From a virus: a stretch of DNA of 31,440 nucleotides. How positions within the stretch are numbered: the first letter of the stretch is position 1; each line of letters starts with the position of its first letter. The stretch spans positions 1 to 31,440 of IMG/VR virus record IMGVR_UViG_3300010413_000155; one strand, given 5' to 3'. Below are positions 4,132-28,270 of the stretch, piece by piece. A model generated the notes under the pieces. The model worked only from the letters and a program-made list of their open reading frames with translations. It did not search any database and was not told the DNA's origin. The position numbers were made by a program, and so were the translations under genes.

Positions 4132-4470
4132 CTATACCTTCATTAATATATACTGCACTAAAAATAATATGATGGCTAACGCACCACCACCAGAGGTAAG
4201 GCGTATGGTCCATTCCTTTTTCAAACTCTTGCCATTACCATTAGCATATATAAGATTGACTTTGGTCTTAATCTCCCCGACATCGGCACGAACAGCCTTA
4301 AATTCCTCGTGCCCCTTCTCAAGTTCCTTAGTTACATGTGCCTTGCAACTCTCATGCTGTCTATTAATCCTGTCTACCGTGTCCTCAAAATACTTTTCGA
4401 GAGCCTTGTGCCTGTCCTCGTGTGCTATCCTCTGTGCTTTAAGAACTTCTATCTGTGCTTCCTGCGTCAT
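4132..4470 (-). CDS. Coiled-coil protein with C-terminal TM segment (holin/XhlA-like)
   Basis: A 112-residue protein. Residues 1-75 are charged and helical (EDRHKALEKYFEDTVDRINRQ and onwards), consistent with a coiled coil. Residues about 94-111 (GGALAIILFLVQYILMKV) form one membrane-spanning helix. A soluble helical N-terminus with a single C-terminal TM resembles XhlA-type holin partners and similar phage lysis or membrane-anchored proteins. No endolysin is visible beside it, so the lysis role rests on architecture alone. A strong AAAGGAGAAATG site precedes the start. Confidence 0.6.
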   Translation of the reverse strand: MTQEAQIEVLKAQRIAHEDRHKALEKYFEDTVDRINRQHESCKAHVTKELEKGHEEFKAVRADVGEIKTKVNLIYANGNGKSLKKEWTIRLTSGGGALAIILFLVQYILMKV

Positions 4471-4509
4471 TCATCATTTCTCCTTTCGGACTATTTGTGG
4501 CGCTTATCT

Positions 4510-4704
4510 CTAAGCCAGCATTGCTTCCTTCCTTAGATATTCAATGGTCTTTTGCCCCGAACCATGCGTAGTATCATGCCTGACACATATAGGGTAAGGG
4601 CATTGGATACACTTGCCCTCCCAATACTTGCAACCTTCGTCACCTATGATACGAAGCCCAGGATAGACCTCTATCCGATGCTCCCATATATGCTTGTTAG
4701 CCAT
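4510..4704 (-). CDS. 64-aa Cys/His-containing hypothetical protein
   Basis: I take the ATG at 4704. A TTG two codons upstream at 4710 is possible. The product has CKYWEGKCIQCPYPICV followed by RHDTTH, giving four cysteines within 17 residues plus His, so metal binding is likely. It overlaps the end of the 53-aa zinc-ribbon gene by 8 nt and precedes the holin-like gene. No family recognised. Confidence 0.6.
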   Translation of the reverse strand: MANKHIWEHRIEVYPGLRIIGDEGCKYWEGKCIQCPYPICVRHDTTHGSGQKTIEYLRKEAMLA

Positions 4705-4858
4705 TACCAAACTCTACCGGGACTGTGCGATAGCTTTGCTTACAGTCCAGACAATCCCTCTTGTACCATCCATAGACACCCTTAGTATTGAACGAGCCAC
4801 AGTGAGGGCATCTGCCACCGATCAGCCATCCTCTTATCCAGTTTATTAAGCGCTTCAT
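4697..4858 (-). CDS. 53-aa zinc-ribbon microprotein
   Basis: ATG at 4858, overlapping the TAA of the glycosyltransferase gene (TAATG), with GGAGGTATA directly upstream; stop at 4697-4699. It begins with a short hydrophobic/basic helix (MKRLINWIRGWLIGG) and then a zinc ribbon with knuckles CPHC (from Cys17) and CLDC (from Cys36). The ribbon resembles those of transposase/InsA-like or transcription-related proteins. The N-terminal helix might contact membrane. Function unknown. Confidence 0.7.
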   Translation of the reverse strand: MKRLINWIRGWLIGGRCPHCGSFNTKGVYGWYKRDCLDCKQSYRTVPVEFGNG

Positions 4859-5949
4859 TATACCTCCTTCATCTTTTTAGCAGAGTATTGCATATTCTTT
4901 TCTACCCTGTCTATCTCCGATGCAGGTAGTTTGCCGGACATTAATAACTCATCGCAATGGTAGTAGGATTCTTTATACTTGCCAGTCCAGTAGCAACATA
5001 CTGAGAGACTATCGGCTATTCTCCAATCATATATAGACCTGTCAACAAAGAGCCTTTCTTCAGGGAATGGTATACCTATCGCCATCATACCGAAAATATA
5101 TCCGAGATGGTATTCCTTCCTGTGCCTGTACCACTCCATGACCTGATACAAAGGCTCTGCCCGGGTCGGCCTGTACTGGTAAGCTTTGAGCAATTCATCA
5201 ACAGGTGATTCACCTAAGTTCTTCTTGGCTAATGCACCATAGTACATCGCCTGGTAAATTTCCTCATCCCATCCCCCCATCTCTACGCGCTTCTGATAAT
5301 ACTTGTAGGCCAGTTCCGGCACTCCAGCATCCCTGTATGACTGTGCAAGGTAGAATACATTGCGCTTATTATCTGGTTCCTTCTCAATCTCTGCCTCGAT
5401 ATTAACTGCATCCCTGAGAAACTTCTGCTTCTGTGATACCCCTTGCGACCTTGCCCCAGTGCCAGTAGTGAACGTCATCCATGCGCCTTCTAATATCTCT
5501 AACTTCCCATTGCCAGCCACATGGCTATGCACCTTCTCTTTCCAGTGCCACTCTGCCTTCTTGCCAAGAAGCATCGGGAGGTAGTATTCTGTATTCCCCA
5601 CCTTCATTTTCAATGAATACCCGTCAGCCGTAAGGTTTTCAAATGCCCCATTCGTGTGGTGCAGAGTGCCGTCAGCATCCATGATGAGCGCATAATCCCA
5701 GCGCCCATCTTCGTAGAATTTCTGTAGTGCCATCTCCCTGTTGTCTCTGGCACTTATCCACTCAGTATGAAATACCTCTCCTTCGATTCCATAACCATCC
5801 ATGATCCGCTTGATTGTTTCAGGAGTACCATCGGTAGAACCATTATCGTTAATGATGTAGTAATTAACCACGTCTTTCACGCTTTTGAGGCACGCTGACA
5901 TATTGTGTGCCTCATCCCTTACTATCATATTAAGGCATATCTTTGGCAT
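4858..5949 (-). CDS. Family-2 (GT-A) glycosyltransferase with C-terminal TPR-like region
   Basis: A 363-residue protein. Residues 1-95 form a GT2 fold: LNMIVRDEAHNM at the start, INDNGSTDGT in the nucleotide-sugar pocket (about 34-43), and the metal-binding DAD of MDADG (about 91-95). Residues about 190-350 are helix-turn-helix pairs (FYLAQSYRDAG, AYKYYQKRVEMGG, PLYQVMEWYRHR), typical of TPR-like repeats. The GT2-plus-TPR layout is known from bacterial, phage and giant-virus enzymes that glycosylate proteins or small acceptors. It lies beside the fibre genes with a second glycosyltransferase, so a virion or host surface acceptor is plausible. The RBS is weak (GGAGCG). Confidence 0.88.
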   Translation of the reverse strand: MPKICLNMIVRDEAHNMSACLKSVKDVVNYYIINDNGSTDGTPETIKRIMDGYGIEGEVFHTEWISARDNREMALQKFYEDGRWDYALIMDADGTLHHTNGAFENLTADGYSLKMKVGNTEYYLPMLLGKKAEWHWKEKVHSHVAGNGKLEILEGAWMTFTTGTGARSQGVSQKQKFLRDAVNIEAEIEKEPDNKRNVFYLAQSYRDAGVPELAYKYYQKRVEMGGWDEEIYQAMYYGALAKKNLGESPVDELLKAYQYRPTRAEPLYQVMEWYRHRKEYHLGYIFGMMAIGIPFPEERLFVDRSIYDWRIADSLSVCCYWTGKYKESYYHCDELLMSGKLPASEIDRVEKNMQYSAKKMKEV

Positions 5950-6044: not shown

Positions 6045-6251
6045 TTAATTTCCCCATAATTCATCTTCTTTTTCAGGAGTAATACCATACCAGTTCATAC
6101 GCACATCAAATTCCACTGACCCACTTGTGAGGGGAAACTGGAATTTAATACTATCTGGTTTAATAAAGCTAATCCCAGTAGCCTCCGCATCTCTAAATGC
6201 CTTCATAACATCAATCATTGTCGTTGTTATTACCTTTAAATCAAGAGACAT
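6045..6251 (-). CDS. 68-aa hypothetical protein between two glycosyltransferases
   Basis: A small protein (MSLDLKVITTTMIDVMKAF...) with an N-terminal helix and a beta-rich second half (IKFQFPLTSGSVEFDVRMNWYG). No family recognised. A strong AAGGAGG site lies inside the end of the upstream gene, whose stop is separated by 1 nt. Position suggests co-expression with both glycosyltransferases. Confidence 0.6.
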   Translation of the reverse strand: MSLDLKVITTTMIDVMKAFRDAEATGISFIKPDSIKFQFPLTSGSVEFDVRMNWYGITPEKEDELWGN

Positions 6252-6252
6252 T

Positions 6253-7077
6253 TTATTCCTCCTTTTCCCATTTTGGTTTTTGCATACGGTTTATATAATC
6301 AAATGATACCCTCATCCTATCCTTTAATGTTAATGGATTAGCTATGGGTATATTGGTTACGTAATCATCAAGATTCACTTCGGGATGTGCTGCATATTTC
6401 CCTGTTGCTAGTTCCATGTGCAAACATTGAACGTGGGTATCACATATTATCTCAACCCCGCAAGACTTGACGAGATTGTAAAACCAGTAATCTTGTCCTA
6501 TCTGTTTAATATCAGGTTCGTTCCAGCAACCTTCAGGAACTATACAACATAATGGCATTTCTGGATATTTTGATTTAACCTTCCTTAACACCTCACATGG
6601 AATTAAAGAGCAACCCATACCACATCCAACAATATTTCGTCTTAATCCAGTGTTAGGGGTAGGGTCAATGGGATACCACCTGTTTGCCTCGTCTTTCTGG
6701 CTAATCATAATACCACCAAACTTAATGTAGTAAACCCCCACTATAATAGCTTCTGGATGTTGTTTGCTCGTTTCTAGTAGCCTCATTCCTCCGTACCAAG
6801 GCAAAACTACATCTTCTTCAATACATAGGGCATACTTCGCATTATCATTCAATGCTTGCTCAAATAAGTAATTATAAGCTGTATCAACAGGGTTCCCGTC
6901 TATAGCATGGAATGACACACCTAATGCCGTTAAATCTATCATACGATTCATGTGAGATGTTAATTGCTGTGCAGGTAATTCATTAAAGGTACGTCTTGGT
7001 TGTAATATAGCTACCAAAGGGATGGTATTCTCTGATAGTTCCTTTGCTATTTTATATATTTCTTGTGATATATCCAT
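6253..7077 (-). CDS. Putative GT-A-fold glycosyltransferase
   Basis: A 274-residue protein. After an N-terminal strand (IPLVAILQPRR) comes a GT-A-like layout with the acidic motif CIEEDVVLPWYGG at about 84-96, in the position of the DxD metal site, and a GCGMGCSLIP loop followed by a helix, a pattern seen in phage glycosyltransferase-like proteins with an aspartate/glutamate pair. A later segment has QDYWFYNLVKSCGVEIICDTHVQCLHM, where the HxxCxH could be a further metal or sugar contact. The substrate is unknown. It follows the repeat-protein gene by 9 nt with an AGAAGGA site, and is co-oriented with the fibre genes. Confidence 0.7.
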   Translation of the reverse strand: MDISQEIYKIAKELSENTIPLVAILQPRRTFNELPAQQLTSHMNRMIDLTALGVSFHAIDGNPVDTAYNYLFEQALNDNAKYALCIEEDVVLPWYGGMRLLETSKQHPEAIIVGVYYIKFGGIMISQKDEANRWYPIDPTPNTGLRRNIVGCGMGCSLIPCEVLRKVKSKYPEMPLCCIVPEGCWNEPDIKQIGQDYWFYNLVKSCGVEIICDTHVQCLHMELATGKYAAHPEVNLDDYVTNIPIANPLTLKDRMRVSFDYINRMQKPKWEKEE

Positions 7078-16467: not shown

Positions 16468-17196
16468 TTATACAGTCCAGTCCACATAGCCGACAGCCTT
16501 CATGTAATCAACTTCAAGTACGCTGGCAGCCGCAGACCTGTTTTCGATACCAAGACACATCCACCCGACATCTGCCGGAGTAACCACTGAGTTGACAGCC
16601 TTGATTAACCTGCCATTGAGATAGACTTCACCGTTTCCGTCAGTGCTGACGTACACACGGACTACATCATACTCATCATTGACAGCCGCTTCATTAGCTC
16701 TTGTGCCATTGGCATCCGCAGAGCTATTAACTGCCCCTCCGTCACCGAACACAGCCCTCCAGTCATCGGTTGTACCATCAGAGTCAAACTGCAATCCTAT
16801 GATTCCACCAGAACCATTGTAGGTCATGGTGGCAGTAGCGAACTCTGCTGGCATTACAGGAGTGGTCGCATCCAGTGTTTCAGACCATCCACAATAAACT
16901 GCCCCTGTGGTAATGTCAGCCATCTTGAACCTTGCCTCAAGGTAAACGCCCCCATCGGCAGGCTTAAACGGGCCAATCATCAGGAAACAGTTATCGTTGT
17001 CTGCTGTATCAGTTGTGATAGCCAACACACCACCTGGCTCATCCGTAGTGGCAGCGAAGCTACCCTCATTAACTGATACATAATTTACGCCATTACTGCC
17101 ACATGGCAGCATGGTCGTACCCATCGTTGCAGTTTCAAATCCCATGAAGTGATCTTCAACTACAATCTTCCCACATTCTCCAATATTAGTAGGCAT
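16468..17196 (-). CDS. LamG/concanavalin-A-like jelly-roll virion protein
   Basis: A 242-residue protein that reads as a LamG-like beta sandwich: EDHFMGFETATMG at the start, LAITTDTADNDNCFLMIGPFKPADGGVYLEARFKMAD, a central FDSDGTTDDWRAVFGDGG, and YDVVRVYVSTDGNGEVYLNGRLIKAV near the end. Such proteins occur in phage head operons near the capsid gene, where they may bind glycans or decorate the shell. The first 11 nt overlap the end of the HNH gene, and the ribosome site (AAAGGAG) lies inside the HNH coding sequence. Confidence 0.7.
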   Translation of the reverse strand: MPTNIGECGKIVVEDHFMGFETATMGTTMLPCGSNGVNYVSVNEGSFAATTDEPGGVLAITTDTADNDNCFLMIGPFKPADGGVYLEARFKMADITTGAVYCGWSETLDATTPVMPAEFATATMTYNGSGGIIGLQFDSDGTTDDWRAVFGDGGAVNSSADANGTRANEAAVNDEYDVVRVYVSTDGNGEVYLNGRLIKAVNSVVTPADVGWMCLGIENRSAAASVLEVDYMKAVGYVDWTV

Positions 17197-17728
17197 TCTT
17201 TATTCTCCTTTCTATGCCTTCTATTTGTTGTTCAAGTTCCCTAATTCTTTTTTGGTAAGGTTCAACAATGAGCCTCGGATTATGGTGATTTTTTGGCATT
17301 GCCTGAAGGTTAATGATTCTATTATCATCTTTAATCCCATTGAGGTGATGTACAATCCATCTCTCAGGCAACGGACCGTTTGCTTCTTCCCATACAAGTA
17401 TATGCTCTGCCCTATATGGATGGTTTCTCCCACGCTTTTCTTCTGTCCTAACATAGACATACCCACTATAGCGTGATTTACCACCTTTCCAATTTGGGTT
17501 TTTCTCCCTACGAAAGTAACCAGTGCGAGCCTTGTTATCACATTCTCTACATCTAGTAGACCTTCGCATAATCTTTTTCCCACAATCAACGCATTCTCCT
17601 GTATGCCTTTCCTCGTATCTTTGAAACCTATCTTTACCTTTAAGTTCCTTACACAGAGGACACCACTTAGCATCAGACCTTTTTGCCTCAAAGTACTTAC
17701 CACAACATTGACACAATACCGTTGCCAT
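17186..17728 (-). CDS. Free-standing HNH homing endonuclease
   Basis: A 180-residue protein. Residues 1-60 carry two or three Cys knuckles (CQCC, CPLC, then CVDC and CREC) for zinc. Residues about 85-150 form an HNH_3-type nuclease: GYVYVRTEE, YRAEHILVWEEANGPLP, HHLNGIKDDNRIINL and NHHNPR. The motif keeps the paired His of HHLNG and the Asn of DNRIINL. The C-terminal 30 residues are a basic coiled coil, probably for DNA binding. It sits between the capsid gene and the LamG-like gene, has its own promoter, and its end supplies the ribosome site of the next gene, so it fits the operon seamlessly. Confidence 0.9.
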   Translation of the reverse strand: MATVLCQCCGKYFEAKRSDAKWCPLCKELKGKDRFQRYEERHTGECVDCGKKIMRRSTRCRECDNKARTGYFRREKNPNWKGGKSRYSGYVYVRTEEKRGRNHPYRAEHILVWEEANGPLPERWIVHHLNGIKDDNRIINLQAMPKNHHNPRLIVEPYQKRIRELEQQIEGIERRIKNAY

Positions 17729-17812: not shown

Positions 17813-18182
17813 CTACGAAGTAGGGGCTGTTGCGTCAGATTTTATTTCCATCACCCACGAAGTGCCAGCGCGCATCCCATAGGCATACTCATCGTAGTGG
17901 AATACATCAGTTGCTCCACCACCGACATGCTCCTGCCGTACCATAACCAGCCTTGGAGCCATGCCCTGTACCAGAATTATGCCCATCTGTGCAAACACCC
18001 CACCGATGGCATCATCAGCACTGTCAATGGTAATGTTGCCATCCTCGTAAACTTCAACTCCGGCAATCGGGAGTTGGAAGCCTGTAGTGAACACACGCGC
18101 TGTCGGCCCCTCATTCAGCACATAAGTGCCGACACCAGCTACCAATTCATCGAATAAATCCTTGCTTACTGTTACTTGTTGA
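17813..18182 (-). CDS. Major capsid protein, exon 2
   Basis: C-terminal part of the capsid protein, joined to exon 1 at 18938-19479 by removal of the intron. It reads QQVTVSKDLFDELVAGVGTY, then FTTGFQLPIAGVEVYEDG, ITIDSADDAIGGVFAQMG and the ending YGMRAGTSWVMEIKSDATAP. The closing pattern (IxID...AxxAxF, then G...W...ITSDATxPT) is typical of HK97-fold capsid proteins of podovirus type. An open frame continues 5' into the intron for about 240 codons, but that stretch is antisense to the endonuclease gene and is not protein-coding on this strand. Exact exon start is inferred: with exon 1 ending in phase 2, T18182 preceded by G18183 keeps the frame. Confidence 0.8.
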
Positions 18183-18207
18183 CTGTAAAGTTTATCTCTG
18201 TTATAAT
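18179..18207 (+). promoter_or_regulatory. Consensus promoter TTGACT-17-TATAAT for the intron endonuclease
   Basis: On the plus strand TTGACT (18179-18184), 17 bp, TATAAT (18202-18207). The -10 box is perfect and the -35 matches 5/6. The start would fall near 18214, only about 13 nt before the ATG at 18227. The -35 box overlaps the proposed intron-exon border. Confidence 0.85.
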
Positions 18208-18937
18208 GTTTACAGAAGGAGGATGTATGCAATCTTTTAATGATATTAATGGTAATCCTATTGACCCAATTTGGGTAGCTGAATTCTGTGGATTCTTTAT
18301 GGGAGAAGGCACTATAGGCATCTATTGTTCTACAAGAAGCTATAGAGGTTCTAGGAATAGATATTATTTTCATGCTAGTGCTTCTATTACACAAAGAGAC
18401 GATTGCGGTGATGTGCTTAAAGAATTCTATGATAAGTTTGGAGGATGCCTTACATCTGCTGGAAGTGAAAATTTCACCAATCCACTTGCTTATAATTACA
18501 ATCGCAAACCTCAAATTACTTGGAGAGTTGGCAATCGTAATACTGTAAAACTTATCGTTGATATTCTTCGCACTTCTAAAATTAATCACAGCAAATCCAA
18601 TATCCTTGATGTCATGGATGAATTCCTTGCTTTGCCTAGAATAAGAGGTAAGCACATTTCTGATGATGAATTCAACATTATGAATGAATTGTACGAAAAA
18701 TCTAAAAGATTGCATCTTTATAACAAAACTTAACAGCGGGCTAGTCATTTCTGCATAGCCTCTATTGGTTCGTTTCCCAATAGTTCGGACTATATCTTTA
18801 CCCTTCTGCCAAAAGACAGGATGGGGTATGGAGTGCATAGTCTCTACACCTTCCTTATATAAGGCTCGGCTCGGTATTGGCATCACAGCGTTCACCGAAT
18901 TCTCTCCATTCCAAACACTCAATTCCTTGAGGTACAG
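18183..18937 (-). mobile_element. Group I intron in the major capsid gene (borders approximate)
   Basis: A self-splicing intron about 755 nt long on the minus strand. Conserved core elements are visible: a Q-like AAUACCGAGCCGAG, an R-like GUAGAGACUA (18838-18847) and an S-like AAGAUAUAGUCC (18787-18798), with P7 formed by GACUAU and AUAGUC. A 7-bp P9-like hairpin CTATTGG/CCAATAG lies at 18762-18783. The core occupies about 18735-18930, and the endonuclease gene fills most of the rest. The last base is taken as G18183. The 5' border is after U18938 or U18941; both keep exon phase. P1/P10 pairing could not be settled by eye, so allow about 20 nt of error. Confidence 0.85.
18227..18733 (+). CDS. 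Intron-encoded LAGLIDADG homing endonuclease (antisense to the intron)
   Basis: A 168-residue protein on the plus strand, the only confident plus-strand gene in the window. One LAGLIDADG motif is seen as WVAEFCGFFMGEGTIGI (about residues 16-32), with Glu of GEG in the catalytic position. The rest follows the LAGLIDADG_1 pattern: a beta region (YYFHASASITQR), VLKEFYDKFGG, TWRVGNRNTVKLIVDIL, then a C-terminal helical end. A single motif implies a homodimer cutting a near-palindromic site, expected at the intronless capsid junction. The ATG at 18227 has AGAAGGAGGA directly upstream. An ATG at 18176 lies before the promoter and is rejected. Confidence 0.9.
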   Translation: MQSFNDINGNPIDPIWVAEFCGFFMGEGTIGIYCSTRSYRGSRNRYYFHASASITQRDDCGDVLKEFYDKFGGCLTSAGSENFTNPLAYNYNRKPQITWRVGNRNTVKLIVDILRTSKINHSKSNILDVMDEFLALPRIRGKHISDDEFNIMNELYEKSKRLHLYNKT

Positions 18938-19479
18938 ACCAAGTTTTCACCAATCTGGAAGCCGTGCAGTACACATCTGTAAGGGGGTGGGCCGGGTTCA
19001 GTCGTGTTGCTGGAGATGTTATACTTCGCAGCAGCGATATAGCCACTGTTGAGAGTACCACCAGCACCGGGGCTTGCCGTTGTAGCACCACTGTCAAGTT
19101 CAGTCAGCCCATCCTTATCCTTCTTGCGTTGGATAGCGTTCTGAGCCAACTGCCCTATCTGTGAATACACATTGGCGGAAATCCTTGCCGCAACCCTGTC
19201 GGGTATCCTCGTCTGGATACCGACTTGCGTAGGCGTGATGGTGAGCAATGTGTCCGCAATCTGCTGTGGGTTGTTCAGTTCCGTAGTTTCAGCGATACCC
19301 TGAGCCTCCAACTGGGATAGCGAAATCTCGTTCCAGTCAAGCCCTGCACCTGTCCCCAACGTAACATTGTCCACAAGTTGAGACATGACACCATCAAACT
19401 CCCTGACTATTCTTGCTGACGCTATCATCTTAGGAAGGCTGTCAGTAAGAGAGCCAGTAACAGTCATACCTGTGGTCAT
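18938..19479 (-). CDS. Major capsid protein, exon 1
   Basis: N-terminal part of the capsid protein; joined to exon 2 at 17813-18182 it gives about 303 residues. It reads MTTGMTVTGSLTDSLPKMI, LDWNEISLSQLEAQGIAETTELNNPQQI, LTITPTQVGIQTRIPDRVAARISANVYSQIGQLAQNAI and ends near YRCVLHGFQIGENL. The E-loop-like section and long helix with RISANVYSQIGQLA are typical of HK97-fold capsid proteins, and the VLH segment corresponds to the family VLHP motif. Without splicing the frame stops at 18919 after six intron-derived residues or fewer. AAGGAGGAAGAAGG precedes the ATG. It follows the scaffold gene directly. Confidence 0.85.
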
Positions 19480-19491
19480 CCTTCTTCCTCC

Positions 19492-20193
19492 TTATTTAAC
19501 TAGCCCTAGCTTCTTAGCTCTGGCCATGTTCTGCTTGTCCAGTTTGAGCGTACCGTTCCCGATAAGCTCAATGAACTTCGCATCACTGTAACCTCCCCCA
19601 CTTGTCACACCAGTGTCCGGCTTGCCTCTCTCGGTCTGCTCATTCACAGTACCAAATTGTTTACAGAAGGATTCCATCTGCTCCCTGCTCCCGTCTGTCC
19701 ATTTGATAAGGTCCTCACGATTAGCCGTGAACTTCCCCTCCGCTAGAAAGGCATCCACATCCCTCGCCTTTATATAGGGTTTCAATTCCTCCCTCGCCTT
19801 ATCCACTTCCGCCTGTTGGGCCTGCAAATTCTTTTCCCTCTGTGTCAGGGTGGCTTCGCCTTCTCTCCTTGATTTGTCTTGCTGGTACTTCTGCCAGAAT
19901 CCAGGCTCGGTTTTCTCCCGTTCTCTTGCTTCCTCTTCAGCCCTTCTCTCTGCTTCTGCGGTACTCTTGGCTACACTAGCCTCCAATTCCGAGATGCGGT
20001 CAAGAGCCTTGGCTAAATTGGCCTCAGATTCCGAGAGTTTCTTTGCCCTCCCCTTGGATGCTTCGGCATCCTTTCGCAACTTCTCAAGTTCAAGGTTGGC
20101 ATCAGTCGTGGGTTCTTGCGCCTCAGTATTCACTTCGCCACTGTCGGTACTTGCCGTGCTTTCGCTAACAATGGTTGCGCTTTCGTCAGGCAT
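19492..20193 (-). CDS. Capsid scaffolding protein
   Basis: A 233-residue protein. The N-terminal 30 residues are acidic and disordered; residues about 35-130 form a continuous coiled coil (LELEKLRKDAEASKGRAKKLSESEANLAK..., REREKTEPGFWQKYQQ, REKNLQAQQAEVDKAREEL). The C-terminal part ends with a small basic helix (KLDKQNMARAKKLGLVK), as expected for binding to the capsid inner face. Position directly before the capsid gene is standard. Its start overlaps the end of the giant gene by 8 nt, with an AAAGGAGACA site inside it. No protease motif is visible. Confidence 0.85.
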   Translation of the reverse strand: MPDESATIVSESTASTDSGEVNTEAQEPTTDANLELEKLRKDAEASKGRAKKLSESEANLAKALDRISELEASVAKSTAEAERRAEEEAREREKTEPGFWQKYQQDKSRREGEATLTQREKNLQAQQAEVDKAREELKPYIKARDVDAFLAEGKFTANREDLIKWTDGSREQMESFCKQFGTVNEQTERGKPDTGVTSGGGYSDAKFIELIGNGTLKLDKQNMARAKKLGLVK

Positions 20194-23100
20194 TTACTGT
20201 CTCCTTTCTTAATTCCTTTCTTATTTCAGTGGGCGATATGCCCAGTCTGAGCATTTGATATATGTAAGTGGCGTACATCGGGTAGGCATCGAACAGCGCA
20301 GGGTAATGCTTCCTGTACCATTCAAGCGTCTTGTAGTCGGCATCGGATGGCTGTAGCTTCCCTGTCTCTGCCTCGTACTCAGTCTTTTGTTCGCCACTCG
20401 GCCACTTCTCATTAGAATATACAGGCTCTATCCTTCTCGGGGTCGAGCCAGTCTGCTGCATGATTCCCTCGGTAGGGGCAACAGTCCCACCTGCCTCTGT
20501 AGTGCCTGCTGTACCCCTCTCAAACTCGTATCCGGCAGGAGTATACCACTCACCTGGTAGAAGGCCACCATACGCATAACCAGCGCTAGTTGCAAGGCTG
20601 GCAGCAGAAGCTCCTACACTTCCTTTGCCACCACTACTACCACCACCGACAGGAGTTAAATCATCCCACTCCATAATATCCTGCACGGCAAGGAAGAAAT
20701 CATAATGGTTCCACAGCCATGACTTCCTTGCATTTCCTGTAAGCCCTGCCAGTTTGTATTCGACAAAGGTATCTACCCATTCTTCAGGGATGGCATTCTC
20801 GTAAGCCTCTCGATACCTCCTATCTCTAGCGTAGGTCGGGTTCTCAATGAGATATGCTTCTCTCTCCGACTTGCTCTTCAGGTCATCATAGACAGCATCC
20901 TCATTCGCATAAGTTACATCAATCTCCAGTTTTGCGATATACGCTTCCTTCGATGTGTACTTGCTATAATCTATCGGCTTCCACCTTTGTGTTTCCTTTG
21001 GAAGTTCATTCTTCATAAACTCGTTTAGTTCGGAATGGGTAAGCCTGAAATACCTAGCCTCTGCACTAACGCCACCAAACTCGGTTACAATATTTTGATA
21101 CTCTATATGCGTGTTTCTCATATCCTTCGGTATGCCCATCGTGTATGTATTATCAAGGAACTTCGCCTGTTGAAAATCAAAGTTATCAGGATTTGCCCAG
21201 AAAGCATCCCTCTCGTCTTTTGTCACAAGCGCATCATACTCATCAATCTTGTCAGCCCAATCTACCTGATACTGATAATGCGCCTGTAAAGTCTCATCAT
21301 CCATGATTCCTTCAGAATCAAGCACCGGTTTCCAGTCAACAAACGATGTTTCACCAACACCCCACTTCTCAAAGACATCATGTTTCATCTTATAAAGATT
21401 GGCCTCTGCACTTCCGGCACTATGTTCATTGACAATCTCTTTGTATTCCATCCACTGAGACATGAGGGTTTCTATTGGGTTATCGCCTAATGTTGCAAGT
21501 TCCGCTTCACTCAATCCTGAAATGAAAGCCTCTGTATCTTTAATATCTCGATACCATTCTCTCTCATAGGTGGCTATTCGGTAGGCATCTGCGTTTTCAT
21601 AGCCTGTTACTTTCCCTGCCCAAAACTTTTCTCTCTCGCTGTCAAGTTGGAGAGAATCATAATATTCATCATAGGCCGCCCAATCAATATTTATCTTCAG
21701 AACATTGACATTATCATCAGGCTTTTTCAAACCTGCCGAGTTCCAGTTCCCAGGCTGCGAAGCCCACTCAAAGAAATCATCATGGGTAAGCAGAAAATAT
21801 TTGGCCTCCGAACTACTTGCAGTAAACTCGTCAACTGTCCTGATATACTCAAAGTAATCTGGAGCTATAGCACTCGGAACCATCTTCTGTACCCAATCCT
21901 CAGATAGCCCAAGTTCATCCACCATCGTTTTTAACTTGTTATAAGCATCTTCTGTTAGTAGTTTAGATGTCTGCCCCCACAGGAACAGCATGGCATTTTC
22001 TGTAGGATGGCTCGTCAGCCATTCCTGCCTCGGGTTTACTTCCAGCTCAGGATGGTCTATAAGAAATTGCTCCTGTTCCTCTACTGCATCAAGAGCGTTG
22101 TAATCCCTGATTAATATGTATTGGTCTAGTGTAATCCTGCCATCATCATAGTAATCCTCGTAGGTATCGCCTACCCTTGGGTCTGTATTCACCTTATAGA
22201 GTTCTGTGTTGATATATTTATCATGTTCTTCCTTAATCTTCTTTGTATCAATTATGGACTTAACTATATCATTTGGCTTGTAAATTTCCTCATCGGCATA
22301 TCTGGCTATCTTGCCCCACAGCCATGCCATATCCTTAATCTCACCCTCATTACCATCAGGGTCAAGGTTGCCGAGTTCCTTAATCATCCGATTGAAATAG
22401 GTATCATCAATGTTAATAGCGTTTACACCAAGCATTTGAGATATTAAGTCCTCAAGTATCTTGTATTCCTTGCCTAGCCTTATGTCCTCAAGTACCTGCC
22501 CCATAGCCAAAGGCAATGTCCCCTCAATCTCATAGTATAATAACCTTCCAAGATTTTCAGGCCATCCACCTTTAACTATTTTGTATCCCCAATAATCTGC
22601 GTTTCTAATTAAGTCAAATTGCGTTCTTATTGCAGGATTCATTCTATTCATAATCCAGTTATACATACCACCAAAAGGCACAGGGAATGAACTGTAATCT
22701 TTGTCAGATACTTTAATTTTTTGAGGGAACATCATGCGGAATAAACCACGATAAGGCCCACCAAGCGGAATACGGAAGTCACCCACCATGAGACAAAGGA
22801 ACTTACCATTTCTAGGATTGGGATTGATGGCATCAAAGGCTGCTTCCCATGGGTCCTCGTCATCTCCTGCATTTATGGCAGCAGAGGTTGCACAAGCAAA
22901 CATCGCAAATGCTGCCCCTGTCATCATAACCTGCATTGACAACTTTTCTTTCGCAGTTAGTTGTTGACCTGTGAACATCTTAGCAAAACCTTGTGTAGTC
23001 TCATACATTAATTTCGCTGGTTCCATCATAAAGGAATACGATGTTGGTAAAGTCCTCAGAAGTTTTGCTCTTGCTGGTGATTGTCCCTCAAGAACTCTAT

Positions 23101-26100
23101 TTGCCATAGGGAATACTTGGCTAGTAATTGCATGGGCAGTTATCTCAGCATCCATCCTTGGCAATCCTGCGTTCATCAGTTGATTAGTTTTAGCTATCCA
23201 CATATTGTACTTATGCATACGAAGCCAACCAAACATACTGTCAACAAATTTGTCATAGATATGAATTTTCTTCAGCCACTCAGCACGATATTCCTCAACT
23301 GTATTACCGATTGTCATACCTTCAAGCGCTGCAAATCTTGAAATTCTTTCCTGATCTTCCATTGCTCTTTGAGTTATATAATCCTTAGAAAACGGATAGA
23401 GTGGATTTTTATTATTCATTATCCCTTTTACTTCAAGAGCAGTAACTTTTATGGTATTAATTGGGTCGAACAATAATCCTAGTACACCTTGAATTGATAT
23501 TGGCGAACCATCAGGCCCAAAAGCAATACGCCTTAACTGGTCAAAGAAATTAACAAGCGAGTTGCTTCTTGAATTTCTGCTACTCTCTATTACTGGGATC
23601 AAATCTTGCTTATAATATTTATTAGTGAAAGATATATTTTCCATACTAACATGATAATATGGTTTTAAGTTTGCAGTTTTCCATGATTTCTGTAACTTAG
23701 CCAAATCAGTTTTAACACTATCTATCTCGCTCTCCACAGCTTTTATATCCTTACCTTTATTCTTCCCACGAGATATTATTGGGTTAAGTGTTTCCTGTAA
23801 ATCAGTTAAGTCCTGATCTTCATAATCAGATTCAAGGAAAGTATCAATAGCCTCTGATTGTTTATCTTGCAATCTTGACAGTGTTCCTTTTAATGACTGT
23901 AGCTTTTTACGAAGCCCCATCATATTCTCATAAAGTTGTGGGTGCATCTCTTCCATTACTTCAAGTTTTGTTTTCCCATTTAGAACATCCCTTGCTACAT
24001 TCTTAGCAGCATAACGAGCCTTAAATGCATCCATCTGATCAATCAATATAGCTATATCCATTTGCGGGGTATATGGTTGGCCTAACTTCTGAGAGTGTAA
24101 TGTCCTATCTTTTGAAGTTTCATAATATCTAGTCTTACCTCTACCAGTTACTCCTGCCGTATATTCACTTCCCATCTTTTCAATTACATCTTCGCCTTTA
24201 TCTACATTGGGGAGAAAGGCCCCATTTGGTTTTGAATCAAACCTACCAATTCTATCCTTTTTATCTTTTATAAAATTCCTATTAACATAATCAAGCCAAT
24301 AATCGTAATGAGGATTAAGCATATTAATTACTTCTTGTTGCTTTGGCGAAATTACGTATCTATCTGGATTTTGGATTACATCCAGTAAATATCCTCTCTC
24401 TTGATATTCTTCGTGTGGGCCGATATATCTATTATCTGCTTGTTCTTTGCCATGTACCACATTTTTACCGAAAGCATCATATAACTTGGCTTTAATCTTT
24501 TCTCTACCAACATGTGATAGGGAATCAATATAAGCCTGTACCTGAGATTCTACATTCATAGATAAATGCACTACTCTTGTTTCAGGAGTATTCATTGATA
24601 ACTTTGGTTTCATAAATGCAAGCGCCTGTTTTAACCCAGGTAGTTTTGTTGATACTTTAGTCAAATCATTTGAAGGATTTAGTTCTATATTCTTATTTGA
24701 ATATTCAATAAGATTATCTCTATTCCAGCCTTTAGTTGGTTCTGCCTCATAGGAAGGTTTCGTAATCTTTGGTGGCTCTATTATATCAACCCCTTTGTCA
24801 TCCTCAGTCTTGACCTTCTTGATGGTATTCTTCTTCGGCTTGGTGACTTCAGGCTTCTTCCTTTTGCTCGAAGTTTCCTTTATCTCCTGCTCGGTCTTTG
24901 CCTTCGCCTGCGACTTCTTGACGTTCTCGATAACCTCTGCTTTAGCAACAGGCGCTTCCTCCAACTGCCTCTCCACAGTAGCCTGCTGTGCCTGCTGTGC
25001 CTCCGTAGGCGTTACACCCTCCATCGCCTCCTTCACCTGTGCAAACTGCTCGTTGGTGTAGTTCATCCACTTGCCACCTTTTATCTGAATGGCAGTGGTC
25101 TTGAGCGAGTTCTCCCTCAGTTCGGCAGGTGTCTCGGTAAGATTGGCAACATAGTCTATGACCTCTGGTTCAAACTGTGGGTTGGCTTGCTTGAAGGCAT
25201 CAAGGGTTTGTGGTTCGATTGTTGGCATTTGTTCCTTTTCAGCCTGAAGCATCTCAAGCCTTGTCGGCCTTTTACCAAAGGCTATATCCTGATACTGCTT
25301 TTGTAGGTTTGAAATCTCTACAGATAGTTCTGCCTCTCTATCACCCAATGTCTTATAATCCTCATCTGATGTTTTCCTATCAAACCTTTTTTCTCTAACT
25401 TCTCGTTTTTCCTCTTCTAACTTTGCTATCTCTTCCCTGATTGGGCGAAGTTGTATCTCGATAGGCTCTCTCATAAACCTATCTCGCTCAATCGCTGATT
25501 CGACTTCTGCTCTACGTTCAGCAGACCAAGGAGTTCCACGCAGTTGCAGGTTCTTTGTTACTAATGCAATATCTCCTGTATTAAGGAAGTTCACTGCATC
25601 TTGAATTGTTTGGAAGGGCAAAAACCCCTCCTTTATCCTATGCAATCCTTTATAATCTATCTTTGCTATTGTGTCAGTCATAAAAGACCTAAGTGCCTCT
25701 TCCTGCTCCTGCGTCTTGGAAACTGTATTTATCCATTTCTGGTAAGCATCAAACTTATCATTTATCTTTTGATTGGCAGATATAGAAATCCAGTATTCTC
25801 CTTCAGCAATACCTTGTACTGCCTCAACATCAAGCCCTATATCTTCCCCTTCAGTCTTTATTCTATTTAGTATTATCGTTTCTCTTTCAGTCGGAAGTTT
25901 CTTCAAGGTCACAGCAGGCTTGCCAATCGCCCCCAACTCCCCTGTTTCCACAACCTGCTTCAGCCCGACAAGTATCTTGGTAGGCAGGCCAATCTTGTCT
26001 GCCCTTCTCTGAAGCGTAGCCTGAATAGCCTCTCGTTGCCCCTGATTGACCGTCTGAGACATCAACCCAAGTTGCTCTATCATTGCAACCTCGATAGCCT

Positions 26101-28270
26101 TGTCTATGATTGCCTGCACTTCAGGGTCATCGGTAAGTTGGCTGAGTACATCGTTGACCGCAGAATCATAGTCCTGTCCTTCCCTGACCTTCGATGCAAT
26201 ATCCTTCTGTGCCTGCGTTAGCGCATCGCCTTTGAGATTCTTGAGAACATTGTTCTGGACAAGGGGGATTATATTCGCACCTGTCTGGTAGATACCGCCC
26301 ATCGCCATGCCGAGATAGACAACTGTCCTTACTTCCTCATCCGAAAGGTTCTTCTTTATCTGCCATGCCTTTATGTCCTGCCCCATCGCCTGACGCTGCC
26401 ATATCTCTTGGAAGTATTCTTCGCCACCTTCAGTACCAGCAGTTAAGACAAAACCTAATCCACGCCCAACAGTTTTCTGCACCACTCCCTTCGCCACTAG
26501 GCTTTCCAGTTCCTTGCCGTATCTGGTTAATGGCATGAGCATCGCCATAAACTCAGGAATATTTGTAGCAGTTAATTGCATATTATGTGCAAGGACATCC
26601 CAAGCCCTATTGCTGGCATCCTGCTCATCGAAGCCAGCGTCTATCGCCTGCTGGTAAGTTCCAGCAGCCTCGAACAATCCCTCGAAGGCTGTATTTGCCA
26701 CAGCGTACCCAGTTGCCTGCATGACATATCCAGTGAATGATGATAGCCTGGCACTGGTTCCCAATACCCCGAGTGCCTTTGTGGCAGTAGTACCCAAAGC
26801 AGCCAGTGGTGCTTGGAGGACTGTACCGAAACCTAAAGTGCCAGCCATAAGAAGTGCCTGTGTTGGAACCTGCTCAAGCAACTGCCAGCCTATGCCTTCT
26901 CCCACTCCCATGCCAGCCTGTATCCCCTGATCGGTTATCCACTTATTATAAAAGTCTACGTTCTCCTGCCCGAACTTCTGAATCGGCTCAATACCTGCCA
27001 TAGTGCCAGCCCATGACAACCCTGAGTTTACAAGGCTGGCTGTCGCTGCCGTACCGCGCTGAAGTACATCCCATGCAGTACCCCAAAATCCCTCATCATA
27101 TTCTCCGTAGAAGGCTGTCCTCAGTTCTTTGTCTGAATACTGAGGAAGGAGAAGCCGGGTTAAATCAATGGCATCTGCCTTGTTTGGGTCACGAGAGACT
27201 ATATCCAAAAATTGTTCTGGATTATCTTGCGCTATCTGTATCACTACTCCTGGGTCAGCTATTTTTGGAAACAGGTTTCTTACTTCCTGCTCCACGAAAT
27301 TGACAGCATCCTTCCAGTTAAAGGCATCCTTGACATCCTGATCTGTAAGCTCAGGTGCAGCAGTTTGAAGTACAAATTTAGTCTCGGTAGAGTACCCCTT
27401 GTCTGTGTACCAGTCAAGGAATCCTTGTGTATCAGAGACTAAGGCAGCCCTAATATCAGCGATAGCAGCATCGGCAGGTTTGTTCGCTATCTCCGGCACA
27501 TCCCAAAACACATAATCTATGGAAGCCTCAAGCACTTGCTCTGGATTGGTATATTTCTGCACCATTCCTTCAATACCAGTAACTTCGCTTATAGGGGCAG
27601 ATGGCCTCTGCTCTGGCCTATTTATATATCCAGTAACCCCACCTATACCGGAATAAGGTAGTTGTTGTGTTTGCCCTGCCAATAAATCCTCAAAGGTATA
27701 TTGCTGTTGTGCCTCCTGAATTGCTGCATAATATTGTTTGACATCCTCTGAAGTTAAACCAATCTCAAGGAGCAATGCCTCCCTTTCCTTTGCAGTGATA
27801 CCACCCTCTGAAGCAATCTGCTCTATCCTTGCAAACGATTCAATCTTTTCTGTAGAAATCGGCAAGTTATATCTCTGCTGATTGATATAAGTGTCCAGAG
27901 CCTCCCAGTTCCCGAGACTTTCCCCGTACTCAGTTCCTTCAGGGTCTACCAAATGAAGCCCAGTAGGTGTAGCAACATACTGCCAATCAACAGGATTCGG
28001 TAACTGGTTGAGAGCAGTGTTCAGTTCGGTATCACCGAGAGCAGTAATGTCCTCATAGGTCATAACCTGCGTAGTTTCAGGAGCAACCTGAGTAGACGTT
28101 CTTATATCAGGGACATCCTGATACCTCTCTGCCCATATTGCATCACGATATGCTTCCATTGAGGAATGATACTGCTCTTCAGTCCTAGCTAAATCAGCTT
28201 GCCAATCAGCCAAACTATCGTACTTGTCTCTGTCCCATACTGGAGGGACAAATGTTGGTTTAGTTACCAT
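20186..28270 (-). CDS. Giant polyvalent internal-virion-type protein (2694 aa, LPD38-like)
   Basis: One open frame of 2694 codons between the small head genes and the scaffold, about a quarter of the window. Visible parts: an N-terminal helical region; a hydrophobic Ala/Gly-rich stretch at about 457-503 (LLMAGTLGFGTVLQAPLAALG); coiled-coil segments; a Lys-rich linker at about 1123-1157; an LPD38-like region at about 1540-1950, including MSMQVM-type helix MMTGAAFAMFACATSAAINAG near 1780-1800, then GDFRIPLGGPYRGLFRMMFP and GGWPENLGRLLYYE; a C-terminal region with about four loose repeats (EAKYFLLTHDDFFEW-type and YD...SEREAF-type units, about 2050-2540); a Gly/Ser hinge; and a final helix. Phage proteins of this size are usually packed in the head and ejected with DNA. 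No polymerase, lysozyme or protease motif was recognised. Confidence 0.8.
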   Translation of the reverse strand: MVTKPTFVPPVWDRDKYDSLADWQADLARTEEQYHSSMEAYRDAIWAERYQDVPDIRTSTQVAPETTQVMTYEDITALGDTELNTALNQLPNPVDWQYVATPTGLHLVDPEGTEYGESLGNWEALDTYINQQRYNLPISTEKIESFARIEQIASEGGITAKEREALLLEIGLTSEDVKQYYAAIQEAQQQYTFEDLLAGQTQQLPYSGIGGVTGYINRPEQRPSAPISEVTGIEGMVQKYTNPEQVLEASIDYVFWDVPEIANKPADAAIADIRAALVSDTQGFLDWYTDKGYSTETKFVLQTAAPELTDQDVKDAFNWKDAVNFVEQEVRNLFPKIADPGVVIQIAQDNPEQFLDIVSRDPNKADAIDLTRLLLPQYSDKELRTAFYGEYDEGFWGTAWDVLQRGTAATASLVNSGLSWAGTMAGIEPIQKFGQENVDFYNKWITDQGIQAGMGVGEGIGWQLLEQVPTQALLMAGTLGFGTVLQAPLAALGTTATKALGVLGTSARLSSFTGYVMQATGYAVANTAFEGLFEAAGTYQQAIDAGFDEQDASNRAWDVLAHNMQLTATNIPEFMAMLMPLTRYGKELESLVAKGVVQKTVGRGLGFVLTAGTEGGEEYFQEIWQRQAMGQDIKAWQIKKNLSDEEVRTVVYLGMAMGGIYQTGANIIPLVQNNVLKNLKGDALTQAQKDIASKVREGQDYDSAVNDVLSQLTDDPEVQAIIDKAIEVAMIEQLGLMSQTVNQGQREAIQATLQRRADKIGLPTKILVGLKQVVETGELGAIGKPAVTLKKLPTERETIILNRIKTEGEDIGLDVEAVQGIAEGEYWISISANQKINDKFDAYQKWINTVSKTQEQEEALRSFMTDTIAKIDYKGLHRIKEGFLPFQTIQDAVNFLNTGDIALVTKNLQLRGTPWSAERRAEVESAIERDRFMREPIEIQLRPIREEIAKLEEEKREVREKRFDRKTSDEDYKTLGDREAELSVEISNLQKQYQDIAFGKRPTRLEMLQAEKEQMPTIEPQTLDAFKQANPQFEPEVIDYVANLTETPAELRENSLKTTAIQIKGGKWMNYTNEQFAQVKEAMEGVTPTEAQQAQQATVERQLEEAPVAKAEVIENVKKSQAKAKTEQEIKETSSKRKKPEVTKPKKNTIKKVKTEDDKGVDIIEPPKITKPSYEAEPTKGWNRDNLIEYSNKNIELNPSNDLTKVSTKLPGLKQALAFMKPKLSMNTPETRVVHLSMNVESQVQAYIDSLSHVGREKIKAKLYDAFGKNVVHGKEQADNRYIGPHEEYQERGYLLDVIQNPDRYVISPKQQEVINMLNPHYDYWLDYVNRNFIKDKKDRIGRFDSKPNGAFLPNVDKGEDVIEKMGSEYTAGVTGRGKTRYYETSKDRTLHSQKLGQPYTPQMDIAILIDQMDAFKARYAAKNVARDVLNGKTKLEVMEEMHPQLYENMMGLRKKLQSLKGTLSRLQDKQSEAIDTFLESDYEDQDLTDLQETLNPIISRGKNKGKDIKAVESEIDSVKTDLAKLQKSWKTANLKPYYHVSMENISFTNKYYKQDLIPVIESSRNSRSNSLVNFFDQLRRIAFGPDGSPISIQGVLGLLFDPINTIKVTALEVKGIMNNKNPLYPFSKDYITQRAMEDQERISRFAALEGMTIGNTVEEYRAEWLKKIHIYDKFVDSMFGWLRMHKYNMWIAKTNQLMNAGLPRMDAEITAHAITSQVFPMANRVLEGQSPARAKLLRTLPTSYSFMMEPAKLMYETTQGFAKMFTGQQLTAKEKLSMQVMMTGAAFAMFACATSAAINAGDDEDPWEAAFDAINPNPRNGKFLCLMVGDFRIPLGGPYRGLFRMMFPQKIKVSDKDYSSFPVPFGGMYNWIMNRMNPAIRTQFDLIRNADYWGYKIVKGGWPENLGRLLYYEIEGTLPLAMGQVLEDIRLGKEYKILEDLISQMLGVNAINIDDTYFNRMIKELGNLDPDGNEGEIKDMAWLWGKIARYADEEIYKPNDIVKSIIDTKKIKEEHDKYINTELYKVNTDPRVGDTYEDYYDDGRITLDQYILIRDYNALDAVEEQEQFLIDHPELEVNPRQEWLTSHPTENAMLFLWGQTSKLLTEDAYNKLKTMVDELGLSEDWVQKMVPSAIAPDYFEYIRTVDEFTASSSEAKYFLLTHDDFFEWASQPGNWNSAGLKKPDDNVNVLKINIDWAAYDEYYDSLQLDSEREKFWAGKVTGYENADAYRIATYEREWYRDIKDTEAFISGLSEAELATLGDNPIETLMSQWMEYKEIVNEHSAGSAEANLYKMKHDVFEKWGVGETSFVDWKPVLDSEGIMDDETLQAHYQYQVDWADKIDEYDALVTKDERDAFWANPDNFDFQQAKFLDNTYTMGIPKDMRNTHIEYQNIVTEFGGVSAEARYFRLTHSELNEFMKNELPKETQRWKPIDYSKYTSKEAYIAKLEIDVTYANEDAVYDDLKSKSEREAYLIENPTYARDRRYREAYENAIPEEWVDTFVEYKLAGLTGNARKSWLWNHYDFFLAVQDIMEWDDLTPVGGGSSGGKGSVGASAASLATSAGYAYGGLLPGEWYTPAGYEFERGTAGTTEAGGTVAPTEGIMQQTGSTPRRIEPVYSNEKWPSGEQKTEYEAETGKLQPSDADYKTLEWYRKHYPALFDAYPMYATYIYQMLRLGISPTEIRKELRKETVNA

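Follow-up and report, generated by a model that had tools for sequence, protein, structure and literature searches.

Mobile group I introns of the T4 td/nrdB/nrdD type carry their endonuclease genes on the sense strand, unlike the intron described here. Otherwise they resemble it as interpreted below, in being mobile, in residing in phages, and in placing the expression of their endonuclease genes under dedicated control (PMC2988022). Antisense genes within group I introns have been reported for Didymium rDNA (I-DirII and I-DsqI; PMC3073962, PMC9548176), where they are expressed as separate transcripts, as is proposed here, and where I-DsqI likewise is inserted in P9.2. These differ from the present case in residing in eukaryotic nuclear rDNA, in encoding His-Cys endonucleases (that of I-DsqI in a group IE intron), and in that the separate transcripts are RNA polymerase II products with spliceosomal introns.

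The closest precedent is the major capsid gene of mycobacteriophage LittleE, the splicing of which was shown by RT-PCR and N-terminal protein sequencing, with the intron judged most likely to be group I and found to contain a LAGLIDADG reading frame on its bottom strand (Pope et al. 2013, PMC3706429). The viral DNA analysed herein (the window, 31,440 nt in its entirety) shares with LittleE the host gene, a group I intron of approximately 0.8 kb, and a LAGLIDADG-type endonuclease gene on the opposite strand. Since the LittleE capsid intron already shows an antisense LAGLIDADG gene, the locus described here is a second member of this type of arrangement, at another capsid site, and is uncommon but not new. 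What is added is the exact anatomy of the locus, together with a candidate promoter, as well as the observation that the same plan recurs with an unrelated endonuclease family. In this way, a lone published case is extended to an architecture found in three capsid lineages with two endonuclease families.

The capsid gene and its group I intron

On the minus strand, a capsid reading frame begins with an ATG at 19479, breaks off, as the earlier note on this DNA had proposed, and is then taken up again as far as a stop at 17813. When the hand-spliced protein is searched against IMG/VR, 25 homologues are returned, all of them intronless, in which the frame is contiguous at the junction; their alignment across this point reads H.F[QH][IL]KD and sets the junction at HGFQI|KDLFDEL. 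Exon 1 (18953–19479, minus strand) thus extends from the ATG to HGFQ-I and ends in phase 2, an assignment based upon these homologues and upon relatives annotated as major capsid protein, with exon 2 (17813–18164, minus strand) opening with CAAGGATTTATTC and encoding KDLFDEL... to the stop, as determined by frame and by the intronless homologues. Removal of the intron generates the host frame as it exists in all 25, and the expected spliced joint at 18953/18164, predicted from sequence, is GGCTTCCAGAT|CAAGGATTT. Insertion has occurred at approximately residue 176 of 292, where several invariant residues of the capsid family adjoin the junction, whilst the LittleE intron is inserted close to where the mature capsid begins, in other target DNA.

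With regard to the identity of the host gene, distant relatives in Pelagibacter and Microcystis phages, identified by tblastn, bear annotations of capsid or major capsid protein. The AlphaFold model of the intronless capsid protein of L001 is of low confidence (mean pLDDT 49); when this model is used in Foldseek, the top 50 matches consist entirely of phage capsids or encapsulins of the HK97 fold, with E-values down to 2.7e-6. Annotation and modelling together support the assignment of an HK97-fold major capsid gene, as anticipated in the earlier note.

The intron itself spans 788 nt (18165–18952, minus strand; TGGTGAAAAC...AACAGTAAG). Its catalytic core, P1–P9, matches RF00028 from end to end (18766–18958, minus strand; model positions 1–253 of 253; E 1.9e-9), and the fold z-score for 18735–18958 is -2.48. 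The score of 43 bits lies below the RF00028 gathering score of 50, and therefore an Rfam scan at gathering scores returns no match, the family being found in E-value mode only. As a yardstick, the LittleE intron, for which splicing was shown experimentally, reaches only 30.7 bits (E 1.6e-4), less than the intron of the window. Default Rfam cut-offs, along with gene callers, can hence miss introns of this kind. At the 5′ splice site, CCAGAU|UGGU..., the last U of exon 1 stands opposite a G of the guide GGUCUG, and at the 3′ splice site, ...AACAGUAAG|CAAG, the last intron base is a G (omega-G); a P10 is also possible between the CAAG of exon 2 and the guide CUUG, this and the 5′ pairing having been read by hand. 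On sequence grounds, it is confirmed that the capsid gene is split by a minus-strand group I intron. The limits originally suggested for it (18183–18937, 755 nt) were 15–18 nt off when compared to those set by the homologues, the U.G of P1, P10 and omega-G. Similarly, exon 1 had been read through VLHGFQIGENL, of which HGFQI is indeed exon and 'GENL' is intron sequence.

Downstream of the core, the P9.1 hairpin (18739–18760, minus strand; GGCUA-UGCAGAAAUGAC-UAGCC) bears a recurrent loop, GCAGAAAUGAC, which reappears, on stems of different sequence, in LittleE and in many other introns of viruses and bacteria. The usual order in introns with this loop is a short P9.2 hairpin, then GUAACA, then the 3′ end; indeed, the P9.1 motif is followed within 80 nt by GTAACA or a close variant at 175 of 221 pattern sites, some of which are not introns. 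In the window, the P9.2 loop is occupied by the endonuclease gene, which adjoins the 3′ splice site. The 5′ strand of P9.2 (GCUGUUAAG; 18729–18737, minus strand) overlaps the endonuclease stop codon and pairs at 8 of 9 positions with the 3′ strand (CUUUACAGU; 18182–18190, minus strand), a score equalled by shuffled flanks at a frequency of 0.007 (0.04 for LittleE). The motif AGUAACA (18170–18176, minus strand) follows, stopping 5 nt short of the 3′ splice site; it is also present in LittleE and in two further capsid introns, L042 and L515, considered below. In LittleE, the antisense gene, gp14, similarly comes directly after P9 and is inserted in P9.2, with the P9.1 loop and the AGUAACA 3′ end common to both introns.

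A related situation is seen for Pelagibacter phage HTVC120P (MH598807), the capsid of which is also annotated as two pieces, with a 69 nt segment of the gap being 83 % identical to the core of the window. The gap differs in having no endonuclease gene, and an RF00028 search of the capsid region (L284 2461–2651) returns no match; judging by its similarity, it is probably an unannotated, endonuclease-less intron.

The antisense endonuclease gene and its proposed expression

The gene within P9.2 (18227–18733, plus strand) encodes 168 aa from an ATG at 18227 to a stop at 18733, and contains a single LAGLIDADG motif, FCGFFMGEG, with its acidic residue intact (GEG). Its product matches phrog_5046 (E 2.4e-5) over the N-terminal half of the profile, where the LAGLIDADG motif sits, as well as Pfam LAGLIDADG_1 (residues 21–124, E 0.031, sub-threshold) and, weakly, I-MsoI (E 0.0065). 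PHROGs labels phrog_5046 as 'HNH', yet LittleE gp14, a LAGLIDADG protein according to its authors, matches the same profile at 1e-39. Direct comparison of the two endonucleases yields 23 % identity over 98 aa, with the C-terminal part not shared. No close relatives are found in IMG/VR or GTDB genomes, with one weak match in phage records, and a single-sequence AlphaFold model (pLDDT 38) is too low in confidence for use. The plus-strand location and LAGLIDADG type given in the earlier note are retained, the latter being supported by matches that are weak.

Upstream of this gene, and inside the intron, is the promoter-like sequence TTGACT-17-TATAAT with an extended -10 (18179–18207, plus strand), an 11/12 match to a sigma-70 consensus, which in itself is no proof of a promoter. 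The window contains four such 11/12 sites versus 0.8 expected, with 0.05 expected in intron-like sequence. A Shine–Dalgarno sequence, AGAAGGAGG (18214–18222, plus strand), can be read 4 nt before the ATG. Near the 3′ intron end of the window, L042 and L515 there is in each case a TTGACT or TTGATT at 17-nt spacing from a -10-like hexamer (11/12, 9/12 and 9/12, respectively, the last two being weak), and LittleE differs in that a consensus sigma-70 promoter is absent upstream of gp14. As promoter-like and ribosome-binding sequences belong to the gene itself, it is plausible that endonuclease expression is separate from late capsid expression, as the earlier note suggested.

Taken as a whole, the locus is very probably a mobile capsid intron that would self-splice, and that carries in P9.2 a separately expressed antisense homing endonuclease. 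The element occupies a conserved stretch of a phage major capsid gene, the codons for HGFQI|KDL, with the core, P1–P9, predicted to fold from the first ~215 nt of the intron, which would then leave the late capsid mRNA by guanosine-initiated self-splicing. For the endonuclease, on the opposite strand, a sigma-70-type promoter and a ribosome-binding site within the intron would drive expression; we propose that this would keep ribosomes off the folding intron and make the timing of the endonuclease independent of late transcription. As with other members of its family, the enzyme would cut intronless capsid genes of co-infecting phages, upon which repair would copy the intron in. With the splice sites located exactly and a promoter candidate in hand, antisense expression of an intron endonuclease in phages becomes testable.

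It is unlikely that the intron splices but that its endonuclease is a decaying or silent passenger, with mobility lost. The lack of close relatives, which means that purifying selection on this copy is not demonstrable, would sit comfortably with such a scenario, as would a Pfam match that falls under the cut-off; however, the frame is open for all 168 codons, the acidic GEG residue is preserved, and the gene is preceded by a strong Shine–Dalgarno sequence and, suitably spaced, a promoter-like site that matches at 11/12 positions.

The separately expressed homing endonuclease remains the favoured interpretation when transcription beyond the gene is considered. On the plus strand, the gene points towards the core, which lies ~35 nt past its stop, and no terminator-like site is found in this interval, so that the endonuclease transcript could continue into the ribozyme as antisense RNA. 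If transcribed early, such an RNA might extend through the core and exon 1, delaying capsid splicing or translation and acting as an early/late switch. Terminators can be missed, however, and LittleE splices with the same orientation, so that a regulatory role of this nature is rather improbable. The notion that there is no intron, with the capsid gene either broken (by assembly artefact or as a pseudogene) or expressed as two pieces, finds some comfort in a sub-gathering Rfam score and in support for splicing that comes from sequence, but is scarcely credible: the group I core is complete, the frame is restored exactly and at a conserved motif, the splice sites show the correct chemistry, and the 3′ domain has elements in common with the LittleE intron, for which splicing was shown experimentally.

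A further property of this region is that the exon-2 frame is open through the intron for 260 codons, creating a 369-aa shadow ORF (17813–18922, minus strand) that could be reported by gene callers in place of exon 2 and the endonuclease. TTA, CTA and TCA codons are absent from the endonuclease gene. Selection for an open frame opposite the endonuclease (0 stops; chance ~0.001 under window-gene codon usage) was considered and is not supported, because LittleE, L042, L515 and L098 have stops there; codon bias suffices to account for it, as the HNH gene of the window is also without TTA and CTA, and has a single TCA.

Endonuclease orientation in other viral introns

A motif survey of IMG/VR provides 241 distinct viral group I core sites, amongst which ~24 sense endonuclease frames, picked by motif and not each confirmed by profile, compare with 2–3 antisense ones inside introns. 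The antisense ones from the survey are those of L042 and L098, and L515 was reached by following L042. This agrees with the earlier note in that phage intron endonucleases are usually sense-encoded and antisense placement is unusual. Two of the antisense cases did not come from an unbiased survey, and L144 and L093 are uncounted, each having an endonuclease-like gene beside a group I core with placement inside the intron not established. In L144, this is a 326-aa gene (4211–5191, plus strand; phrog_15137) that stands, in antisense orientation, next to a 92-bit core located in a tRNA cluster. L098, on the other hand, has neighbouring group I introns (6142–7072 and 4487–5403, both minus strand) with homologous endonuclease genes in opposite orientations: a sense gene at 6161–6850 (minus strand) and, inside the second intron (74 bits), an antisense gene at 4556–5200 (plus strand) that is HNH-type by PHROGs.

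A comparable arrangement is that of the metagenomic viruses L042 and L515 (IMG/VR 3300025087_001774 and 3300029268_001913), in which a group I intron, scoring 67 bits in the former and 75 bits in the latter, again interrupts a capsid gene and an antisense endonuclease gene again lies in P9.2, between P9.1 and AGUAACA. They differ in that the endonuclease is HNH rather than LAGLIDADG, and in an unrelated insertion site, EMRKYD|KYREIEKKM, for which L506–L514 are intronless homologues and PF25209 identifies the capsid. The antisense genes of L042 and L515 display 58 % amino acid identity, with differences of 67, 49 and 135 at codon positions 1, 2 and 3, respectively, a pattern that, as read from the alignment, indicates that the antisense frame is under selection.

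One may tentatively suggest, although we consider it somewhat doubtful, that capsid introns repeatedly evolved to carry antisense genes in P9.2 (a LAGLIDADG gene in the window and in LittleE; an HNH gene in L042 and L515), with the complement of the 3′ intron end supplying a promoter, the gene thereby being expressed separately from transcription of the late capsid gene, and convergent transcription perhaps restraining capsid splicing early in infection. The stronger idea, that antisense orientation is required in capsid introns, was rejected: sense endonucleases adjoin capsid-like exons (sub-threshold Pfam) in L183, L237 and L242, and antisense placement is therefore an option rather than a requirement.

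Genes flanking the capsid locus

The scaffold-like and capsid genes are immediately preceded by a gene for a protein of 2694 aa (20186–28270, minus strand), within a record of 31 kb. Directly behind the capsid gene there is a free-standing HNH_3 endonuclease gene (17186–17728, minus strand), which has its own 11/12 promoter-like site (17777–17749, minus strand), one of the four in the window. A full-length relative (63 %) occupies the same place in L005. Most other relatives have only a shortened gene of ~70 aa, in which the C-terminal part is kept and the HNH motif is partly degraded; by their sequences, these shortened genes represent decay or domestication of a capsid-linked endonuclease.
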